Positions 27,382-45,458 of a stretch of 46,754 bases of DNA are shown here, piece by piece. The position numbers were made by a program, and so were the translations under genes. The notes below the pieces were generated by a model that saw only the letters and a list, made by a program, of their open reading frames with translations, did no database searches and had not been told where the DNA came from. The DNA lies in contig JAIEFT010000051.1 in the NCBI GenBank assembly GCA_029066805.1, forward strand, positions 1 to 46,754, in the 5' to 3' direction. Each line of letters starts with the position of its first letter. Positions within the stretch are counted from its first letter, which is position 1. The stretch is from Clostridiales bacterium. Its GTDB lineage: Bacteria > Bacillota > Clostridia > Christensenellales > Pumilibacteraceae.

Positions 27382-29226
<1,845 letters not shown>

Positions 29227-29293: not shown

Positions 29294-30823
29294 ATGGCAC
29301 AGACAGTTTTGGTAGTGGATTTCGGCGGGCAGTATAACCAGCTGATCGCACGGCGCGTGCGTGAGGCAAATGTTTACTGCGAGCTGATTTCGTTCGAAAA
29401 AATCACCGAGAAGATTGCCGAAACCAATCCTATAGGGCTTGTGTTTACCGGCGGTCCTGCGTCGTTTAACGAACCGGGCGCGCCGCGCATTCCCGCCGAG
29501 GTTTTCTCTATGGGTATTCCCGTGCTCGGCATTTGCTACGGCTGTCAGCTTATTGCAGGCACGCTTGGCGGTGCGGTGGGCGAAGGTCCGCGCGAGTACG
29601 GCAGGCGCACGCTCAAAGTCGAGCAAAATAAGTCCAAGCTGTTCGACGGCGTCAAGGCGCAATCAACGTGTTGGATGAGCCATACAATTTACATAGAAAA
29701 GCTGCCTGCGGGCTTTGCCGTTTCCGCTACTACAGAAACGTGTCCCGTCGCGGCTATGGAAGACCCTGCGCGCAAGCTGTACGGCGTGCAGTTCCACCCG
29801 GAAGTCATGCATACCGACGAGGGCTTTAAGATACTTAAAAACTTCCTATACGGAGTGTGCGGCGCGACCGGCGAGTGGACTATGTCCGGCTACGTCGAGC
29901 GCACCGTCGCCGAGCTCAAAGCCAAAATCGGCGACAAAAAAGTGCTGTGCGCACTGTCCGGCGGCGTCGATTCGGCGGTGGCGGCAACGCTCATTCACCG
30001 CGCGTGCAAAAACCTCACTTGCATTTTTGTAGACCACGGCTTGCTTAGAAAGGGCGAGGCGGAAGAGGTTATTCGCGTGTTCCGCGACGAACAGGGCATG
30101 AACCTTGTCGCGGTTGACGCGGGCGCAAAGTTTTTGGCTAAGCTCGCGGGCGTAACAGAGCCCGAACGCAAGCGCAAGATTATCGGCGAGGAGTTTATCC
30201 GCGTATTCGAAGAGGAAGCCAAAAAGATCGGCGCGGTGGACTACCTTGTTCAGGGCACGATTTATCCCGACGTGATTGAGAGCGGGCTCAACCATTCCGC
30301 CAAGATAAAGAGCCACCACAACGTAGGCGGACTGCCCGACGTGGTAGACTTTAAGGAGCTTGTCGAGCCGCTTAGATTGTTGTTTAAGGACGAGGTGCGA
30401 AGATTAGGCTTCGAGCTCGGCTTGCCCGAATATATAGTAATGCGCCAGCCGTTCCCCGGTCCGGGACTTGCCATACGCGTTATCGGAGACATCACCGAGG
30501 ATAAGCTCAAGATACTTCGCGAGGCAGACTTCATTCTTCGCGACGAAATAGCCAAGAACAAGCTCGACAGAGAGATTTGGCAGTACTTTGCGGCGCTTAC
30601 CAATATTCGCACGGTGGGCGTTATGGGCGACGAGCGCACGTATGACTACACCGTTATAATCCGCGCCGTCACAAGCGTGGACGGCATGACCGCCGACTGG
30701 GCGCGCATTCCGTTTGACGTGCTGCAAACCATTTCCGACCGCATAGTCAACGAGGTCAAGCACGTCAACCGCGTCGCTTACGACATAACGAGCAAGCCGC
30801 CCGCAACTATCGAATTAGAGTAA
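29294..30823 (+). CDS. guaA: GMP synthase (glutamine-hydrolysing)
   Basis: 509 aa. Class I amidotransferase domain (1-190): FTGGPAS, nucleophile C81 in [13 protein letters not shown] with the His/Glu of the triad. Synthetase domain: PP-loop [14 protein letters not shown]; dimerisation domain ends KPPATIELE. Converts XMP to GMP in the cytoplasm. AAAGGAG precedes ATG 29294. A transposon-end-like sequence begins 25 nt after its stop codon, so the gene seems to be the landing site of the Tn7-like element downstream. The coding region itself is intact. Confidence 0.97.
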
Positions 30824-30843
30824 ATCCGTAGTGTTTTAGTACA

Positions 30844-31046
30844 AAGCATGTTTTCGTCGGGATAGAGAAATCACTTTCTCATAAAGACTAAAACTTCACA
30901 CGCTATATATAGAGACCTGTATCACAAGATATAGGTCTTTTTTCTTGTTCATATGTGGGTGGGACACTAAATAAGACAATTCTAATAAGGACGGTATATG
31001 CTTGCGTTCGGGAAAGAGATTTTTCTATCCCGACGAAAACACGCTT
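30844..31046. mobile_element. Candidate Tn7-like transposon end / inverted-repeat block
   Basis: Left arm starts AAGCATGTTTTCGTCGGGAT and right arm ends ATCCCGACGAAAACACGCTT; the arms are inverted repeats of about 37 bp with about four mismatches, including the inner AAATC-CTTTC part. The left TGTTTTCG begins at 30849, 25 nt after the guaA stop, matching the offset of Tn7 from glmS. Because the arms face each other 200 bp apart, this may also be a small nonautonomous derivative using the same ends. A terminator lies inside. Confidence 0.6.
30913..30943 (+). terminator. Rho-independent terminator
   Basis: AGACCTGTAT, loop CACAAG, ATATAGGTCT, then TTTTTT. It is the first terminator after guaA but lies within the inverted-repeat block, so it may belong to the inserted element and insulate it from guaA transcription. 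Confidence 0.8.
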
Positions 31047-31118
31047 ATATGCGAACATAGTGAGAATATAAGCAGTTTGAGTGGGAAACGGTAAGAAAAC
31101 TAAGATAATCGCTTATAT
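31042..31118. repeat. Three copies of CGCTTATAT upstream of tnsA
   Basis: CGCTTATAT at 31042-31050 and 31110-31118, and inverted ATATAAGC at 31066-31073. Possible transposase-binding or regulatory sites between the transposon end and tnsA. The gap 31047-31243 has no other gene that I can support. Confidence 0.4.
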
Positions 31119-31243
31119 AGCTCTTTTGGCAAAGAAAATTATAAATTTTGCTTTCCTGAAGCTATTCCCAGTGTTTTCCCCAATGAAAGAGCAATTCGTT
31201 GGGGCAGATTGGGATAGATTGGCAAAACATACTGAGAGGTATT

Positions 31244-31588
31244 ATGTACAGCAAAAACTATAAGGGTAGGTGCGATAAGCGCAAAATTGGCAAGTGTGAA
31301 GATGTGATTCGATGCTACGATGCTATTATGACCGCATATGTCAGTCAACTTGAAAAAGATGATGAGGTGGTGGAGGTAAGGGTAAATGTTCCGCTAGATG
31401 ATTTTCCTCTTGGAGAGTTCACTACTGATTTTGTATGCACTTTGAAGGACGGAAGTATCAAAGTTAGAGAGTGTGTATTTAGAGATAAAGTGTCACATCC
31501 GATTGTCTCAAAGAAGTTAGATGCAAGCCGTGTTTATTGGCTTAAGCGTGGAGTAGAAAACTGGGGGTTGGTCGTAGAGTGCAGATAA
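31244..31588 (+). CDS. tnsA: TnsA-like endonuclease subunit of a Tn7-like transposase
   Basis: 114 aa. The 'GEFTTDFVCTLKDGSIKVREC' core followed by 'KKLDASRVYWLKRGVENWGLVVE' is the TnsA N-terminal nuclease pattern (D in TTDF; YWxxxGxxWGLV end). The catalytic (E/Q)-x-K is not seen: the strand ends R-E-C-V, with Lys a few residues later (FRDK). I recall similar REC-type short TnsA proteins in gut Bacillota, so this may be a variant rather than a dead copy. It lacks the C-terminal TnsC-binding domain of Tn7 TnsA (273 aa). Start at ATG 31244 after GAGAGG. Overlaps tnsB by 10 nt. Confidence 0.75.
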   Translation: MYSKNYKGRCDKRKIGKCEDVIRCYDAIMTAYVSQLEKDDEVVEVRVNVPLDDFPLGEFTTDFVCTLKDGSIKVRECVFRDKVSHPIVSKKLDASRVYWLKRGVENWGLVVECR

Positions 31589-33354
31589 ATGATTTATGCC
31601 GATTTGACGGATCTATTTTCCGTGTGTTGGCTATAGACGAACAATCCGTTTTGGTCATTGATTGTATCAAGAGGCAGATGCCTTCTTGGGTTACTATTCC
31701 TACCGAATACACGCTTTGCACTGAAGAGAAATTACTATCGGAAACCGGCGTTGTTATGGTAACAGATGAAGAGTCATTAAGCCAAGCAGAGAGAAAGACT
31801 GCTCATCAAAGATATACGATGATTGCCCCTGCTCTTATTGTAATCGAAGATATACACGCTAGGTCGGATATGATTAATTTTGTAAGCAAGAAGCATAATG
31901 TTTCCAAACCAACACTGCGTAAGTATCTCTGTTTGTACCTCGCTTTTCAGAACATTTGTATTCTTGCTTCTCAGACCAAATTTAAGGCAGATAAATGCCT
32001 TACGGACGAACAGAAAGTGTTTAGATGGGCGTTGAATAAGTTCTACTACACAAGCCGTAGAAATAGCCTTAAAACTGCTTACACGATGATGCTGAAAGAG
32101 AAGTATTGCGATGAGTTTGGAACACTTTTAGCCGATTACCCACCATTCCATCGCTTCTATTATTTTTACCAAATACACAACAAGGAACGCAATAAAATCA
32201 TATCGCGAGAGGGGGTGTCAAATTATCAGAGGAATCATCGTCCGTTATTGGGAGATGGGGTTAGAGAGTACTTTCCGACTATCGGTTACGGACTTCTAGA
32301 CAGTACCATAACGGATATATACCTCGTGAATGAGAGTGGGCAATTAGTCGGCAGACCTATCCTAACGGTCTGTGTTGATGCTTATAGTTCTCTCTGTATG
32401 GGATATTCTCTCGGGTGGAAGGGCGGAGCTTATTCCGTCGCGCAGATGTTTCAAAATGTTATCGCTGATAAAGTAGAGCATTGCAAAAAGTACGGTATTA
32501 TTATTTCTTCTGATGATTGGAATTGTGCCGCATTACCTGCCACCATCCTAACTGACCGAGGCAAAGAGTATGTCGGAGACACTTTGGAACACCTAACCGA
32601 CTTGGGTGTTACTATAACTAATTTGCCACCATTTAGAGCCGAACTAAAAGGAACGGTAGAAAAGTTTTTTGATATTATTCAGAACCTTTATAAACCTTAT
32701 TTGAAAGGCAAAGGTGTAGTAGATACGGATTATCAAGAGAGGGGCGCTCACGATTATAGGAAAGATGCTTGTCTTACAATAACGGACTTCGAGAAAGTAA
32801 TTCTTCGCTGTATTCTATACTACAATACACAAAGAATTATCGAGAATTTTCCCTATGCTGGTAAAGCGATTAAGCCTTATGCAAATACCATTTGGAATGA
32901 GTTCTACAAGCAAGGCAATATCATATCTGTTAAATCGGATTTGCTCTATAAAACACTTCTTCCGAGGACAGAGGCGAAGTTTACTCGTCATGGCTTAAAG
33001 GTCGGCAGATTGCATTACAAGTGCTTAGGTTTTGTAGAAGAGTATTTGCGAGGTGATAAGGCTGTCGTAGCTTATGAGCCTAATGACTGTTCATATGTGT
33101 TCTTGATGAAAGACAGTGATTACATACGCTTTACACTAATTGAGATGGCTTTTTTGGGCAAGTCGATAGAAGAGGCAGAGGAAATGATAAGGGGACATTC
33201 CGATGTCGTAAATGGTGAAATACGCAATAATACGCAAGCCAAAATAGACTTAGCACATGATATATTAGCTATCGCTAATAGCTGTGTCCAAACTACAAAG
33301 GTTACAGTCAAAGGCGTTAGGAAAACACGACAAAGAGAAGCGAGGAAACCTTAA
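31579..33354 (+). CDS. tnsB: TnsB-like DDE transposase
   Basis: 591 aa. The RNase-H catalytic triad is visible: D267 (TVCVDAYSS), D326 (ILTDRGKEY) and E361 (LKGTVEKFF), with D-E spacing of 35, as in TnsB/TniA/Mu-type enzymes. An N-terminal DNA-binding part (about 60-200) has HTH-like segments, and a Mu-type beta-barrel follows the core. It cuts 3' transposon ends and joins them to target. Start is GTG 31579 inside the tnsA end. Its stop overlaps the tnsC ATG. Confidence 0.92.
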   Translation: MQINDLCRFDGSIFRVLAIDEQSVLVIDCIKRQMPSWVTIPTEYTLCTEEKLLSETGVVMVTDEESLSQAERKTAHQRYTMIAPALIVIEDIHARSDMINFVSKKHNVSKPTLRKYLCLYLAFQNICILASQTKFKADKCLTDEQKVFRWALNKFYYTSRRNSLKTAYTMMLKEKYCDEFGTLLADYPPFHRFYYFYQIHNKERNKIISREGVSNYQRNHRPLLGDGVREYFPTIGYGLLDSTITDIYLVNESGQLVGRPILTVCVDAYSSLCMGYSLGWKGGAYSVAQMFQNVIADKVEHCKKYGIIISSDDWNCAALPATILTDRGKEYVGDTLEHLTDLGVTITNLPPFRAELKGTVEKFFDIIQNLYKPYLKGKGVVDTDYQERGAHDYRKDACLTITDFEKVILRCILYYNTQRIIENFPYAGKAIKPYANTIWNEFYKQGNIISVKSDLLYKTLLPRTEAKFTRHGLKVGRLHYKCLGFVEEYLRGDKAVVAYEPNDCSYVFLMKDSDYIRFTLIEMAFLGKSIEEAEEMIRGHSDVVNGEIRNNTQAKIDLAHDILAIANSCVQTTKVTVKGVRKTRQREARKP

Positions 33355-34583
33355 TGGAATGGAAAGACTACATTGCTCCGATGTATGAAGGCGAAGAACT
33401 TATAAAGAGGTTGGCTGTCCATACCGAATACAATGAATCGATTCGTAGCGCCTCTGTTGCAGAAAGATTGATGGCACTGTCGAGCTTATACGATATGTAT
33501 ATACCAACTGATATGTCTGTGGAAATTTACTATAAGCTCTATCTAGCACTAGTGCATTCATTATCTCGGAAAAGAACATCGAATTCAAATACGCAACTTT
33601 ATGAGAACTATAAAGCAATTAAAGGGTCGCCTTATCACGGAATATTAGGTGGTATTGATTCATTTGTGATTACGGGCGGTAGCGGCATCGGCAAAAGCTC
33701 TGCAATCAGTAGGGCAATATCTGTAATATCAGCAGATAATATAATTGAGATTAAATCACCTTATCAAAAAATCATACCATTCCTAGTGGTACAAACGCCA
33801 TTCGATTGCTCCCTTAAATCACTTCTGTTAGAGATTCTGAGGAAAGTTGATGAAGTGTTGGGCACTAAATACCTATTCAACTCATTACGCACGAGAGCAA
33901 CTACAGACATCTTAATTGGAACGGTTTCAACGGCGGCTATGAATCATATTGGAATTTTGGTGTTGGACGAGATTCAAAATGTAGCCAATTCTAAGAATGG
34001 GAAAAACCTAGTGGGAAGCATTGTGCAGCTGATAAACTCAAGCGGAATAGCTATCGTGTTTGCAGGTACAGCGTCTATTGTTCCATTTATTCAAGCGGAC
34101 TTTATGCTTGCAAGACGACTGATGAATTTGCATTATAATCCTTTGCCGTATAACCAAAAGTTTTACAGCCTATGTAAAATAATTTTCATGTTTCAGTTTA
34201 CAAAAGAGAAAAGCGAGTTGACCGAAGAAATTACAAGTTTGTTGTACAAGTTCTCGCAAGGCAATATATCCGTAATTATTTCGCTGATAGTGGAGGCGCA
34301 AGAATCCGCTATCCAGTGCGGTCAGGAAGCCATTTCCATAGAGACCATACAATCTGCCTACAAGAAGCGTTTGAGGCTTCTGGACGGCTTCCGGTCGTCT
34401 CAGGATAAGCGTTATGATGTTCCAAGCAAAGAAACATTCTTTCTGCCGATTTGCAATGACCCAAATAATGAAAGTGAGCACTTGTTTTCAGACATAGTTG
34501 TGAGAAGCAAAGCAATGAAGGTAGGCATTTTAGAACTTCTTAGACAATATAACATAGCGGTAGAAGAGGTGGATATTGGATGA
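33354..34583 (+). CDS. tnsC: TnsC-like AAA+ transposition regulator
   Basis: 409 aa. Walker A GGSGIGKSS at residues 108-116, Walker B GILVLDEIQNV, sensor-type 'FAGTASIVPF'. It should link the target selector (TniQ) to the transposase by polymerising on DNA in an ATP-dependent way. ATG 33354 overlaps the tnsB TAA; the end overlaps the tniQ start by 4 nt, so all four transposition genes form one coupled operon. Confidence 0.92.
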   Translation: MEWKDYIAPMYEGEELIKRLAVHTEYNESIRSASVAERLMALSSLYDMYIPTDMSVEIYYKLYLALVHSLSRKRTSNSNTQLYENYKAIKGSPYHGILGGIDSFVITGGSGIGKSSAISRAISVISADNIIEIKSPYQKIIPFLVVQTPFDCSLKSLLLEILRKVDEVLGTKYLFNSLRTRATTDILIGTVSTAAMNHIGILVLDEIQNVANSKNGKNLVGSIVQLINSSGIAIVFAGTASIVPFIQADFMLARRLMNLHYNPLPYNQKFYSLCKIIFMFQFTKEKSELTEEITSLLYKFSQGNISVIISLIVEAQESAIQCGQEAISIETIQSAYKKRLRLLDGFRSSQDKRYDVPSKETFFLPICNDPNNESEHLFSDIVVRSKAMKVGILELLRQYNIAVEEVDIG

Positions 34584-35476
34584 TAGGCATTTTACCAAGG
34601 CTTTATGAGGATGAGCTTTTATATAGTTTCTTATCGAGATATGCTGTTACGGTGGCAGGGAATACATATCGCGGCGTATCGGAAGATTTATATACAGACC
34701 CATTGTGTTGTCCGAATATATTACTGTTAAATCATATGAAAGAAGACTTACTAAGCAAGTTAGAACCACAAGCATCTTTGAGAGAAATAGTTTTGAACCA
34801 CACAATGTTTTCATGGTTTTGCAGGTTCGCAAGAAAAGAGAGAAGGGACAAGGCATTTAAGTTAGCTACCGAAATGAACATAAAGAAGCTCTACGATAGT
34901 CTTCCGATACCAAACTACACAGATAGATACAAGGAAAGAAGAACGATTAAGTATTGCCCCGATTGTGCACAAGAACAGAGAACGCAATTTGGTGAAGCGT
35001 ATTTCCAAAGATTCAACCAAATCTTTGAACTTACCCTGTGCCCGATACACCATTGTAAATTACATCGAACAAGCATAGCTATAGATGGAAGAGTAAGCCC
35101 GGCTTTTATAACAGCTGAGATGGTGATACCTAAAGAGAATGAGATAGTCTATTCTGAAAGCGAATTAGGAATTAGAGTAGCAGAATATTTACTGGATGTA
35201 TTAAACCAACCGCTTGATATTGAAAATAAAAGTGATGTAGGGATTTATTTAGATTACAGGCTACGAGATAGAGGCTATGTTAAGAGTAATGGAACGAGGG
35301 ATATGGGAAAATTAACAAATGACTTCAATGCATTCTATGCTGATATTGGCGTTAAGAGAGAATACTGGTTTCTTCAAAAGTTGTTTTCGCATTATGTTTA
35401 TAACGCTTATGAAATATCTTTGATGGGGCTGTTCCTCAACATATCCACAAAAGAGCTATGCGAACATAAACTATAA
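34580..35476 (+). CDS. tniQ: TniQ/TnsD-like target-selection protein
   Basis: 298 aa. N-terminal 'GILPRLYEDELLYSFLSRYA' is the TniQ opening. A zinc motif follows: C126-P-D-C129 and C154-PIHHC-KLH (C-x2-C...C-x2-H). The region after about residue 170 is short compared with Tn7 TnsD (508 aa), whose C-terminal part reads the glmS sequence. As the only selector seen in the window, it is the candidate for recognising the 3' end of guaA. ATG 34580 overlaps the tnsC stop. Confidence 0.88.
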   Translation: MIGILPRLYEDELLYSFLSRYAVTVAGNTYRGVSEDLYTDPLCCPNILLLNHMKEDLLSKLEPQASLREIVLNHTMFSWFCRFARKERRDKAFKLATEMNIKKLYDSLPIPNYTDRYKERRTIKYCPDCAQEQRTQFGEAYFQRFNQIFELTLCPIHHCKLHRTSIAIDGRVSPAFITAEMVIPKENEIVYSESELGIRVAEYLLDVLNQPLDIENKSDVGIYLDYRLRDRGYVKSNGTRDMGKLTNDFNAFYADIGVKREYWFLQKLFSHYVYNAYEISLMGLFLNISTKELCEHKL

Positions 35477-35492
35477 GAATATTTTTTCTTAT
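35473..35492. terminator. Weak bidirectional hairpin between tniQ and the convergent gene
   Basis: ATAAGAA, 6-nt loop TATTTT, TTCTTAT. The stem is A+T only, so termination strength is doubtful, but its placement between convergent genes fits. Confidence 0.35.
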
Positions 35493-36316
35493 CAGAAAGG
35501 TTCAAGATATAAATCATTATTACTTAGAGTAGATATATTATTAATATTATATTTTACAATGCAGTTCAACGATTTATATTCTGTAGATTCAATTATCGGC
35601 ATAGGGCTACCTAAAATGTCGTGATTTTGGCTATTATACGGTAAAATAAATTCGTTTTCTTGATTTTTTATTGGGTTTGCAATCCATTTATTTACCAAGA
35701 ATCCTGTCAACACCTCAGTCATGTTTTCTGTGCTATTGGTAAGCTTTCTGCTTCGATTAAAGTCGTAAAGAATGTTATCGGTTTCAAGTTCTAATTTAGA
35801 GTATTCATTAAATACATGTTTGCCATCGCCAGTTTCTCTATTAGCTTCTTCGGCAAAAGAAATAAAGTCACCGCAATATCGTTCAATAAATTCCTTTGAA
35901 CATGAGTTTACAGTGCGATGCGTCCAGCGTTGCTTAAATGAATAGGCAAGACGGTTTTGTAAGTGTTCTCTTGTTTTAACAGGGCTGTAATTAAACTCTG
36001 TTCCAAAACTGCCGTTGAAATACTGCTGAATTGTGTCAGATATTGTTCGTAGCTTATCTATGATTATTGTGATATGAAGATGAGCAGGTTTTTCTTTAAC
36101 TCGCGGCAAGAAGTAACTGCCGTAGCGACCTCTTCTTGTGCCGCCTTTTTCACATTTACTTATTACAATAATAGCAAGACAATTCAGCTCTTCTTTTTTA
36201 CAAATCCTTTCAAGTTTTTTCTTAATTCTATTTGCGGCGAGTTCCGCTTTATGATAATTTTCGAATAAGCCCGATGGACTGTCAAATCTTGCTACATGTG
36301 GTCTAGATTGATTCAT
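35492..36316 (-). CDS. Unknown protein with HUH-like motif
   Basis: 274 aa, no family recognised with confidence. 'KPAHLHITIII' in the middle contains a His-hydrophobic-His (HLH) flanked by strand-forming residues, and about 46 residues later comes 'LAYSFKQR' with a YxxK pattern. This order and distance resemble HUH Rep/relaxase/Y1-transposase nucleases. An upstream basic stretch (RIKKKLERICKKEE, GGTRRGRYGSYF) would fit nucleic-acid binding. Start ATG 36314-36316 with AAGGA upstream. It is convergent to the transposition operon. Confidence 0.5.
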   Translation of the reverse strand: MNQSRPHVARFDSPSGLFENYHKAELAANRIKKKLERICKKEELNCLAIIVISKCEKGGTRRGRYGSYFLPRVKEKPAHLHITIIIDKLRTISDTIQQYFNGSFGTEFNYSPVKTREHLQNRLAYSFKQRWTHRTVNSCSKEFIERYCGDFISFAEEANRETGDGKHVFNEYSKLELETDNILYDFNRSRKLTNSTENMTEVLTGFLVNKWIANPIKNQENEFILPYNSQNHDILGSPMPIIESTEYKSLNCIVKYNINNISTLSNNDLYLEPF

Positions 36317-42531: not shown

Positions 42532-42635
42532 TACCAAAACAAACCTTTTCAATAAATGTACCAAAATTGGTTGACTTTAAGAACGCTCAAGAGGTATCAT
42601 CCCGATACCAAAAGTAAGTAAAGTTTGTTTTGGTA
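42532..42635 (+). other. Candidate res site of the serine recombinase
   Basis: A 13-bp perfect inverted repeat, TACCAAAACAAAC (42532-42544) and GTTTGTTTTGGTA (42623-42635), encloses GTACCAAAATTGGT (about 42558) and a palindrome GGTATC-ATCCC-GATACC (42593-42609). Nested inverted repeats directly before a resolvase gene are typical of res subsites. Confidence 0.6.
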
Positions 42636-42647
42636 CGGAGAATTGGT

Positions 42648-43349
42648 ATGTCGGTTTATGGATATGTCAGAGTAAGCACTAGGAAGCAAAAGTTGGATAG
42701 GCAAACAACTAATATATTATCAGCTTATCACACGGCTATAATTAAAAGTGAATTCTATACAGGAACTACTGTAATTCGTCCTGAATGGGATAAGTTAAAG
42801 AAAAAGCTTCATAGTGGCGATACTGTTGTTTTTGATAGCGTTTCAAGAATGAGTCGAAATGCCGATGAGGGTTTCATTGATTACCAAGAACTGTTTGACG
42901 CAGGGGTGCGCCTAGTCTTTCTCAAAGAGCCGCATATTAACACTGAGGTTTATAAACAATCAATAGCAAAGACTTTTGGTATAGAAGTGAGTACGGGGAA
43001 TGAAGCTGTCGATGAATACTTTGCAGGCAATATGGAATTGATTAATCGGCTGTTAATGAAACTCGCTCAACAACAAATTAAATTGGCGTTTGAGCAAGCT
43101 GAAAAAGAGGTAGCTGATTTACATCAAAGAATTTCTGAAGGCATTAGAGAAAGCAAGTTAAAGGGTACTCAAGTCGGATTGGCGAAAGGAACAAGTCTTA
43201 CAACAAGAAAATCTTTAGATTGTAAGAATATAATCAAGATGCACTCCAAGACGTTTGGCGGAAGCCTTTCGGATGAAGAAACGATAAAGCTTTGTGGGTG
43301 CTCGCGTAACACTTATTATAAGTATAAACGAGAGATGTACAAAGGCTAA
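42648..43349 (+). CDS. Serine recombinase (resolvase/invertase family)
   Basis: 233 aa. Catalytic domain starts SVYGYVRVSTRKQKLDRQ with the active Ser in RVST and 'VVFDSVSRMSRNADEG' (the conserved SRxxR-like arginines). A helical linker (KLAQQQIKLAFEQAEKEV) and a C-terminal HTH (LSDEETIKLCGCSRNTYYKY) follow. It should resolve cointegrates or excise/integrate cargo at the adjacent res-like site. ATG 42648 is in a good position after GGAGAATT. A remnant of a related resolvase lies at 46529-46604. Confidence 0.9.
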   Translation: MSVYGYVRVSTRKQKLDRQTTNILSAYHTAIIKSEFYTGTTVIRPEWDKLKKKLHSGDTVVFDSVSRMSRNADEGFIDYQELFDAGVRLVFLKEPHINTEVYKQSIAKTFGIEVSTGNEAVDEYFAGNMELINRLLMKLAQQQIKLAFEQAEKEVADLHQRISEGIRESKLKGTQVGLAKGTSLTTRKSLDCKNIIKMHSKTFGGSLSDEETIKLCGCSRNTYYKYKREMYKG

Positions 43350-43530: not shown

Positions 43531-44835
43531 ATGTTAATTGAGTTTAGCGTAACTAACTTTCAATCATTTAAAGAAAGACAAACATTCTCGACACTTGCCT
43601 CTAAGGACTCACTCTTAAATGCTACTAATTTGTTTGAAGTAAATGGAAAAAACTATTCTAAAATTAATGTTTTTTACGGTGCAAACGCATCAGGGAAGAC
43701 TGCATTTTTTAGAGCATTTCAATTTGTTAGAGCTTTTGTATCTATGTCAAATCAAATGCTTGATAAAACGTTGATTCCTTTAACCCCTTTTTGTTTTGAT
43801 GACGCATCTTTGAAGCGTCCTAGTGTTTTTGAATTAGTATTTTTTAAAGATAAAATTAAATATAGTTATAGTTTCTCGTGTGATAGAAAAGTAGTCTATA
43901 CAGAAAGGCTGGATATATATGAAAATGGAAAGCCTAAATTAGTGTTTGACCGTAGCAATATTAATCAGTACAAAATTAATTCGTATCATGAGTTAGAGAC
44001 TATTAAAGATAAAAATACAAATAATAAGTTGTTTTTATGTACAGCTGCTACGTGGAATTTTGACCTTGTAAAACCAGTTGTTGATTTTATATTGCAAGAT
44101 TTGAGATTTAGATTTAATGTTTCATATGAAGATAGTGGTGAAGTGGAGATGATTCCTTTTATTGAGCATTTACAAGAAGAAGGTCTATTTGATGAATATA
44201 AGAAATTTTGTTTAAAGTTATTGTCTATAGGGGATTTTAGTATAGCGGATTTTGATGCAAAAATCGAAAATGCTGACATTGAATCTTTCCCAGAAGAAAT
44301 AAGAGGCTTTTTTAATGCTGTTAAGCAACTGCCTTTGCCTCCGGAAGCTACAACTGATGTGTTGAAAAATTTAAGATTAATAACAATACACAGTGTGGTG
44401 GGCGAAGACGGTAAAATAATTAATAAAAGACTTAATTTTGAAAGTGAATCATTGGGAACGAAGGCATTATTTAAGATGGCTCCTGTGTTGTTTGATGTTT
44501 TAAGGCAGGGTAAAATTTTAGTAGTAGATGAATTAGACCGCAGCCTTCATCCGTTATTGGCTAAATATATAGTATCATTATTTGTGAGTGAGACAAATAC
44601 AAATAATGCGCAATTGATATTTAACACTCACGATACCAATTTGCTTGATTTGGATATTTTGCGTAGAGATGAAATTTGGTTTGTTGAACGCGATTCTAAG
44701 ACAGGGGTATCGGTTATTTATCCGTTGACTGATTTTTCTCCTCGAAATAATGAGAATATAGAGAAGGGATACTTGCTAGGGAGGTATGGTGCTATTCCGT
44801 TTATTCGGAATGGTGGAAATTTATGGGAAGAATAA
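43531..44835 (+). CDS. AAA15-type ATPase, AbiLi/RloA-like defence protein
   Basis: 434 aa. Opens 'LIEFSVTNFQSFKERQTFS' with Walker A GANASGKT at residues 50-57; late 'ILVVDELDRSLHPLLAKYIV' is the Walker B/D-loop and 'LIFNTHDTNLLD' the H-loop of SMC/OLD-type ATPases. Paired with the RloB-like gene it matches the AbiL (AbiLi-AbiLii) abortive-infection arrangement; related to the ATPase halves of PARIS and OLD systems. It probably senses a phage trigger and controls its nuclease partner. Overlaps the next gene by 13 nt. Confidence 0.87.
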   Translation: MLIEFSVTNFQSFKERQTFSTLASKDSLLNATNLFEVNGKNYSKINVFYGANASGKTAFFRAFQFVRAFVSMSNQMLDKTLIPLTPFCFDDASLKRPSVFELVFFKDKIKYSYSFSCDRKVVYTERLDIYENGKPKLVFDRSNINQYKINSYHELETIKDKNTNNKLFLCTAATWNFDLVKPVVDFILQDLRFRFNVSYEDSGEVEMIPFIEHLQEEGLFDEYKKFCLKLLSIGDFSIADFDAKIENADIESFPEEIRGFFNAVKQLPLPPEATTDVLKNLRLITIHSVVGEDGKIINKRLNFESESLGTKALFKMAPVLFDVLRQGKILVVDELDRSLHPLLAKYIVSLFVSETNTNNAQLIFNTHDTNLLDLDILRRDEIWFVERDSKTGVSVIYPLTDFSPRNNENIEKGYLLGRYGAIPFIRNGGNLWEE

Positions 44836-45458
44836 AAGAATACAAGCGAAAAGCGGGGATTGAAGTTGCAAGACCGGTTTATGCTATAATTTGCGAGGGA
44901 CGCAATCAAACTGAAAGTAAATATTTAGACCATTTTAAAACACGAAAAGGAATAAGCGTTAAGGTTGTTAAGTGTGAAGATACCGATCCTGTTGCTATGG
45001 TTGATAAGGCTAATGCTGTTATAGAATCAGAGGGGTTGTTGGTGGGTGAAGACAAGGTGTTTTGCTTAGTAGATTTAGATAATGATGAACAAAGGAAAAA
45101 TAAAATAGATGAGTTAAAAAAACATAATAGGCATATTAATTTTATTATATCTAATCCCAGTTTCGAAGTTTGGTTCTTATTTCATTTTTTGGATAATCCA
45201 CCACGTTTAAGCAATGGACAAGCTGCGAAAAGAGAATTGCGAAAATACATAGCCAACTATACAGAGAGCTATGATGTCTATTCAAGAGAAGCAGCAATAC
45301 GCAATAATCTTGATGTTGCAATTTCACGTTCTCGAAGCAAAAAGAATGTTCAAAATCAAAATGAGCATTGGATAGACGATGGAAGTTATCCTAATCCTTA
45401 TACGGAAGTAGATACCTTAATGGAAGAGTTGAGCAAGAATTATAAATGTCATCAATAG
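44823..45458 (+). CDS. RloB-like (AbiLii) TOPRIM-type nuclease
   Basis: 211 aa. 'YAIICEGRNQTESKYLDHF' supplies the TOPRIM Glu, 'CLVDLDND' the DxD, and 'FIISNPSFEVWFLFHF' is the signature block of RloB proteins. The predicted effector of the AbiL-like pair: a metal-dependent nuclease activated on infection (family inference). The start codon overlaps the ATPase gene, so they are made together. Confidence 0.87.
   Translation: MGRIKEYKRKAGIEVARPVYAIICEGRNQTESKYLDHFKTRKGISVKVVKCEDTDPVAMVDKANAVIESEGLLVGEDKVFCLVDLDNDEQRKNKIDELKKHNRHINFIISNPSFEVWFLFHFLDNPPRLSNGQAAKRELRKYIANYTESYDVYSREAAIRNNLDVAISRSRSKKNVQNQNEHWIDDGSYPNPYTEVDTLMEELSKNYKCHQ

Follow-up and report, generated by a model that had tools for sequence, protein, structure and literature searches.

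Tn7-like transposons beside guaA and ppdK in Bacillota are bounded by doubled end modules, with TniQ as the apparent selector of the attachment gene

Tn7 inserts next to a conserved gene (attTn7 at glmS), with its tnsA-proximal end towards the 3′ end of that gene, and duplicates 5 bp of its target, and guaA itself is reportedly used by integrase-based islands without TnsABC, GIsul2 and Tn5801. The available parts of two studies give the ends of Tn7 as three sites on the left and four overlapping sites on the right (PMC8649781; PMC13370975). For the TIME and TIME-COMP elements of the Tn3 family, the accessible text of PMC4133298 describes modules of 262 bp that have inverted repeats of 38 bp and duplicate 5 bp, as well as composites that have a module at either border, the two being equally oriented in one case, and whose cores are devoid of transposition genes. 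Here we analyse a stretch of 46,754 nt from a Clostridiales bacterium (hereafter the window), which is the entire contig C47 of a 1.9-Mb draft genome, and read it as carrying a Tn7-like TnsA-TnsB-TnsC-TniQ transposon immediately downstream of the guaA stop codon. We put at roughly 0.85 the probability of this reading, in which the element belongs to a composite-like Bacillota family whose TniQ/TnsD chooses the attachment gene.

Downstream of guaA, in the same layout as Tn7, overlapping tnsA, tnsB, tnsC and tniQ frames run as a coupled operon, which an initial interpretation made from the letters alone (the sequence-only reading) had proposed and which Pfam, NCBIfam and PDB matches bear out; TnsB (DDE), TnsC (AAA+) and TniQ/TnsD are encoded together, as expected of a Tn7-like element. 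The A+T-rich right side noted in that reading is likewise evident, as the G+C content drops from about 0.51 to 0.31-0.41 near position 31000 and stays low up to the contig end. In an alignment of 17 TnsA sequences D62 and E76 are invariant and no lysine stands two residues past E76, the D/E plus lysine pattern being what we take to be the catalytic one, and the Pfam TnsA_N match falls under the gathering score.

The element boundary had been placed at TGTTTTCG, at an offset from guaA said to equal that of Tn7 from its own target (25 nt), with AAGCA (30844-30848) as the target duplication. The motif does start 25 nt past the guaA stop (30849), but it is not the tip: it lies inside one arm of a 35-nt, 91% identical inverted repeat (30844-30878 / 31012-31046), whose pairing continues outward to TGTTTTAG at 30832 and to GCGAACA, which ends at 31057. 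Contig C48 of the same genome opens with an exact repeat of window positions 30981-31057 (77/77 nt) and then runs into chromosome. The predicted far end with a matching 5-bp duplication is found there: read outward, CGTAG adjoins TGTTTTAG on the left and GCGAACA on the right (C48:78-82). The left tip of the element is thus at 30832, 8 nt past the guaA stop. AAGCA is ruled out by the CGTAG pair, and TGTTTTCG as a tip both by that duplication and by comparison with a second genome of the same genus (G003). The last 255 nt of the window matched no other contig of the genome.

Five features had gone unmentioned in the sequence-only reading: an inward-facing copy of the end before tnsA, a hairpin, doubled end modules, a short TniQ and ppdK as the commoner target. 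The first three belong to an end module, 226-264 bp long in nearly all copies measured, that is framed by terminal inverted repeats, encloses a predicted terminator and recurs as direct repeats at both ends of the element. At the target-proximal end, BLAST found inverted arms of ~37 nt in 21 of 25 end regions, the others showing one long inverted stretch (L138), palindromes only (L141) or tips visible by eye only (L111, L131). The hairpin between the arms has fold z-scores of -5.3 to -6.0 in three examples; terminator-like sites number one in the window stretch against 0.4 expected, and Rfam matches to the module as an RNA were all sub-threshold. Rather than inward-only TnsB sites that differ between left and right, both ends carry one and the same module, whose arms face in either direction.

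A pattern search of 21 genomes, followed by inspection of flanks, revealed second modules in the same orientation in 10 (G787, G788, G791, G792, G793, G798, G801, G802, G804 and G807), with GGATACTA as their inner flank (GGATACCA in G807), and a partial second module in G789 (95/95 nt agree). Two modules, the second one of G793 (448 bp) and one of G806 (524 bp), are longer, with an apparent internal duplication or interruption. A single contig carries both modules in Sporomusa ovata (47.6 kb), G807 (17.6 kb), G835 (33 kb) and G270 (19 kb), the G807 and G270 sequences alone being taken whole. Within an element the pair is at least 92% identical in 10 of 12 cases, with a full range of 88-100% (S. 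ovata 248/251, Pelosinus propionicus 252/252, P. fermentans 234/253, G807 230/250, G798 260/262, G801 235/249, G270 226/240, G792 232/252, G804 250/262, G802 234/250, G835 223/254, and modules 3-4 of G831 227/254). Between elements, identity is 80-88% in four comparisons among related genera and 84-94% for the S. ovata module against three other genomes of its order, and the window module is ~52% identical to those of S. ovata and G270.

Exact 5-bp pairs flank the elements of the window (CGTAG), S. ovata (AAAGA), S. acidovorans (CTAAA), P. propionicus (TAATA), P. fermentans (CAATA), G807 (TTAAA), G835 (ATAAG), G831 (AAAGA, outermost) and G804 (CAAAT), that is 9 of 15 elements (12 tabulated plus G804, G792 and G802); in five matching and three mismatching elements the two modules lie on different contigs, and their pairing is assumed. 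Among the 12 tabulated elements, own left and right flanks match in 8/12 cases as against 2/132 cross pairs. In G831 the order is guaA, AAAGA, module, AAAGA, module, TTAAAT, module, 4.6 kb of cargo, module, AAAGA, and no tns gene was seen in that 4.6-kb cargo; the module between AAAGA copies indicates that a module can stand alone at the guaA site. A module search across the order of G787 found modules in 4 of 28 genomes, including the already known G787 and G789.

Such solo modules raise an alternative, namely that a small non-autonomous element (30832-31057) sits beside an ordinary Tn7-like element with undetected ends, C48 being a population variant without the large element. The module does have both tips, the 77-nt overlap with C48 resembles an assembly branch, and Benler et al., in the part of their article available, consider that multiple ends could result from insertions nested in or adjacent to one another (PMC8649781). 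Nevertheless, the inner tip in the window is followed by TAGTG rather than CGTAG, and the sequence past the inner arm and before tnsA is itself conserved: TGGTGATATT in 22 of 23 loci compared, TGGTGATAGT in L131 and TAGTGA in the window and G003. A conserved inner flank of a different kind adjoins the second module in 10 genomes, the modules of an element are mostly closer to each other than to those of other elements, and both are on one contig in G787, G807, G835 and G270. We consider nested insertion very unlikely and retain the composite-like arrangement.

The use of guaA as attachment gene is recurrent. TnsB scans yielded 51 loci with TnsB relatives, of which 43 come from named genomes and 8 from viral contigs; L138 and G003 are one and the same, and L153 and L121 share a contig. 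The operon is preceded by guaA in 11 (L112, L115, L122, L124, L128, L131, L138, L141, L143, L144, L147) and by ppdK in 16 (L109, L110, L111, L113, L116, L117, L120, L123, L125, L129, L132, L146, L148, L149, L150, L159); in 18 others the upstream gene is off the contig or not among the genes examined. Four guaA and two ppdK proteins, as well as rpsR, were named by NCBIfam and the others by C-terminal sequence. Two more guaA elements were confirmed on guaA contigs broken inside the end module, and two more genomes came from the module search. Insertions lie downstream of the conserved gene at a fixed distance and in one orientation: 6 nt past guaA in 10 elements (L112, L115, L124, L128, L131, L143, L147, G808, G831, G835), 7 nt in G003, 8 nt in the window and ~109 nt in L144; distances are variable for ppdK elements. 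The G270 element follows rpsR, which is probably a further attachment gene of the family. In broader TnsB searches, 5 of 396 genomes of the order and 23 of 391 genomes of the class had a match, counting the window's own; the 22 others of the class fall at 46-55% (6 genomes) or 26-35% identity (16 genomes). The hosts are anaerobic bacteria, many from the gut.

Two side observations concern the arrangement at these sites. In Propionispira arboris (G792, C30 and C36; L144, L202), ~113 bp past guaA is repeated beyond the right module, with no 5-bp duplication. On contig C7 of G798 (L191, L192) two tandem elements lie downstream of ppdK, their junction reading module-TGGT-module.

The empty site that the sequence-only reading had proposed seeking in related genomes is present in four congeners. 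In these, the first gene of C48 (L006:163-489) is the next one after guaA, separated from it by 19 bp (G016), 24 bp (G019), 89 bp (G006) or 289 bp (G010) with no element between, and we therefore regard these as empty sites. The corresponding gap is 758-1181 bp in G017, G013 and G009, and in G004, G005, G008, G012 and G015 the C48 gene is preceded by a gene that ends, by eye, like the window open reading frame (ORF) 27382-29226. A DNA search of 61 genomes with the guaA end plus module matched 42, the match extending through the module only in the window and G003 (76%). A diverged module in G002 was recognised by eye, not by the DNA search; the G002 remnant at guaA (L078:719-6200) contains no tns genes, one module at its far end, a recombinase, and dCMP-deaminase-like and kinase-like ORFs, both named by eye.

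Phylogenies link the attachment gene to TniQ. In a TniQ tree of 39 rows (12 guaA, 11 ppdK and 16 unlabelled, uncounted), a single branch with support of 100/99 parts guaA from ppdK rows, with one change for each label and none of 500 shuffles as low. In a TnsB tree of 36 rows, with 13 guaA rows (L121 and L142 labelled by then, the broken G003 excluded), the guaA label needs four changes, at least three of them forced by the starred branches. The conflict is clearest in L112, whose TnsB is sister to that of the ppdK element L110 (100/99) and whose TniQ groups with L121 (100/99) and with Negativicutes guaA rows (99/98); two guaA elements, L112 and L121, thus combine a ppdK-type TnsB with a guaA-type TniQ. 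The L121 contig starts beside tnsA, with the target out of view, and the TniQ tree placed it with guaA rows. In its genome, Pseudoflavonifractor 524-17, the guaA contig ends 83 nt past guaA, inside a module that starts 6 nt past the stop, as expected from a guaA-type TniQ, the tree and the guaA search having been run at the same time. The guaA contig of L142 ends 147 nt past guaA, where a hairpin and a tip of different wording are present. It appears that elements have swapped their targeting gene and thereby changed landing site, a natural target switch. In the part of PMC11406308 available to us, TniQ partner exchange is already reported for another Tn7-like branch.

The window TniQ itself is atypical. 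It measures 298 aa as against 422-494 aa in the other family TniQs measured (486-489 aa in 9 guaA elements; 467-493 aa in L141, L142 and L121), and aligns only with the first ~300 residues of the 487-aa guaA-type TniQ/TnsD, the full C-terminal region being absent; in both relatives scanned, the missing part gives a weak, below-threshold Pfam TnsD match. The window element might be a decaying remnant, once guaA-using and now immobile, with guaA targeting merely historical in this genus. Besides the short TniQ, the interrupted tnsB and tniQ frames of the G003 copy and the tns-less remnant at the same place in G002 would fit such decay. On the other hand, when the window is compared with G003, the ratio of nonsynonymous to synonymous substitution (dN/dS) amounts to 0.072-0.079 in tnsA, tnsC and the 5′ part of tnsB, 0.116 in the first 220 tniQ codons and 0.085 in part of guaA. 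Because these values are low at a dS of 0.7-1.6, the four tns genes of the window have been kept under constraint, and with them the short form of TniQ, which ends at the same residue in both species, in G003 past a frameshift. Decay is thus a possible reading of the window copy, though one we lean away from.

Alternatively, the short TniQ could work together with a second protein that selects the target, on the model of CAST TniQ and Cascade or of Tn6022 TniQ and TnsF, and this partner would be the convergent ORF 35492-36316. Faure et al., in the accessible part of their paper, suggest a small TniQ without large C-terminal extension as a hallmark of extra selectors (PMC10293859), and the ORF, the only local candidate noticed, adjoins tniQ in the window and G003 and is absent from the other loci compared. 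Its dN/dS of 0.31 speaks for weaker constraint than on the tns genes, it occurs in these two genomes only, Pfam, PHROG and PADLOC assign it to no family, PDB gives nothing better than E=0.6, and the viral contigs and plasmids searched hold no homologue. We regard a partner role as unlikely.

Several observations weigh against this picture of a site-directed, double-ended family. The window copy may be unable to find guaA alone, because its TniQ is without the predicted target-binding C-terminus, and its right end is known solely as 77 nt at a contig edge. Duplications mismatch in 6 of 15 elements (G793, G270, G798, G801, G802, G792): in G798 four of five positions match, shifted; G792 has a 113-bp flank repeat instead; and in G801 4/5 match, another module's left flank fitting the right flank in an order wrong for one element. 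A complete second module was not shown in 11 of the 21 genomes of the pattern search, and the pairs of G835 (87.8%) and the tns-less segment of G831 (89.4%) are no closer than modules between genomes (80-94%). Furthermore, neither guaA nor ppdK is upstream in 6 of 51 loci (L114, which sits behind another element, L119, L130, L140, L145, L158). The TniQ of L133 is basal in the guaA clade, yet the guaA of that genome has no module, and in L134, of the ppdK-side group, guaA stands at a contig end without a module, so that guaA contig ends alone prove nothing.

Boundaries, duplications, module identities, empty sites, the association with target genes and the conflict between the TniQ and TnsB trees can be read directly from the sequences. 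Going beyond these, we propose that TniQ/TnsD, by binding the target DNA, would select the attachment gene (guaA, ppdK and probably rpsR), and that two directly repeated modules would bound the tns operon and cargo in the manner of a composite transposon. TnsB, bound to the arms, would bring together the outer tips of the left and right modules, generating the 5-bp duplication during transposition, and the hairpin might act as a terminator. As each module has both tips, a lone one could be moved in trans or be left over by recombination between the two. Whether the family goes further and is obligately composite is, in our judgement, evenly balanced: a self-contained mini-transposon with its insulating terminator, present as two direct copies, would then form the ends, and elements could collapse to solo modules piled up beside the attachment gene and be rebuilt from them, as long terminal repeat (LTR) elements leave solo LTRs, and TniQ exchange alone would re-aim an element from ppdK to guaA.

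The cargo of the window includes a serine recombinase with counterparts in the G002 remnant (L078:2402-3145) and the G270 rpsR element (L073:9546-10244). The G270 TnsB is just 44% identical to that of the window, and the recombinase reads as shared cargo with its own history. A role as core resolvase was rejected: beyond the window only these two loci gave high identity, and two more gave 31-34% over ~90 residues. We take it as cargo because it is found in few loci and none was seen among the ORFs of at least 120 aa in the G807 element. The cargo ORF 39697-40434 matches the S-adenosylmethionine lyase family (Pfam PF23780, E=5e-10), a type known from phage anti-restriction.

Table 1. Coordinates of guaA, the element boundary, the tns operon and neighbouring genes in the window
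Feature	Position	Strand	Evidence or remark
guaA, GMP synthase, attachment gene	29294..30823	+	NCBIfam NF000848, E=4e-233
CGTAG, left copy of 5-bp target duplication	30827..30831	.	right copy at contig C48:78-82
Target-proximal end module, 226 bp, terminal inverted repeats TGTTTTAG.../...GCGAACA	30832..31057	+	
Module outer arm (element tip plus TGTTTTCGTCGGGATAGA), candidate TnsB-binding region	30832..30878	+	matched in G003, 76% DNA identity
Terminator-like hairpin then T run, between module arms	30911..30940	+	fold z-score -5.4
Module inner arm, inverted	31012..31057	-	
tnsA, 114 aa	31244..31588	+	TnsA_N match E=0.002, below threshold (ORF 31199-31588); family alignment with invariant D62, E76
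tnsB transposase, 591 aa	31579..33354	+	PDB Tn7 TnsB, E=3e-46
tnsC AAA+ regulator, 409 aa	33354..34583	+	Tn7 TnsC, E=2e-18
tniQ, 298 aa	34580..35476	+	TniQ Pfam 1.5e-11; Tn7 TnsD N-terminus 4.5e-12
Convergent ORF, 274 aa, HLH stretch that we take to resemble an HUH motif	35492..36316	-	
Cargo: serine recombinase	42630..43349	+	75-76% identical to those in G270 element and G002 remnant
Cargo: AbiL-like (AbiLi/AbiLii, AAA ATPase plus RloB-type) defence pair	43531..45458	+	

These elements add two attachment genes, guaA and ppdK, for protein-guided Tn7-like insertion in Bacillota. The natural swap experiment points to TniQ as the selector, which could help in designing new tools for site-specific insertion. 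The view of Tn7-like ends as asymmetric single ends is called into question by the doubled modules, which may hide elements from end-finding pipelines and may explain contig breaks beside tnsA. With both modules on one contig and open tnsA, tnsB, tnsC and tniQ frames, the copy of S. ovata DSM 2662 offers a practical model. In the open-licence PubMed Central literature we met no guaA-directed Tn7-like element (the available part of PMC8239412 matched both terms), no related paper by title for Tn7 with pyruvate phosphate dikinase and, among the matches listed, no description of doubled Tn7-like ends. 'guaA' is absent from the main texts of PMC8649781 and PMC10293859, an entry in their supplements being possible.

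Compared with the systems described, the family shares with Tn7 homologous TnsB, TnsC and TnsD N-terminus. It differs in its targets, guaA or ppdK, in a tip 6-8 nt past the guaA stop, in a tnsA of merely ~115 aa, and in ends formed by a single type of module, present as two direct copies and having arms that face both ways. The window TniQ resembles those of CRISPR-associated transposons (CAST) and Tn6022 in being short and without large C-terminal extension, although no Cas or TnsF gene was recognised by Pfam, NCBIfam, PHROG and PADLOC scans of the window ORFs tested. TIME-COMP belongs to the Tn3 family, whereas the transposase here is TnsB and neither a Tn3-family transposase nor Tn3-family ends are found. 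Furthermore, the elements at guaA are site-directed, while the accessible text on TIME-COMP mentions no gene-directed insertion, and, unlike TIME-COMP cores, most copies found here (all sought by TnsB) hold the tns operon between the modules. TIME-COMP is nonetheless the nearest mechanism to the doubled modules (PMC4133298, in its available part).

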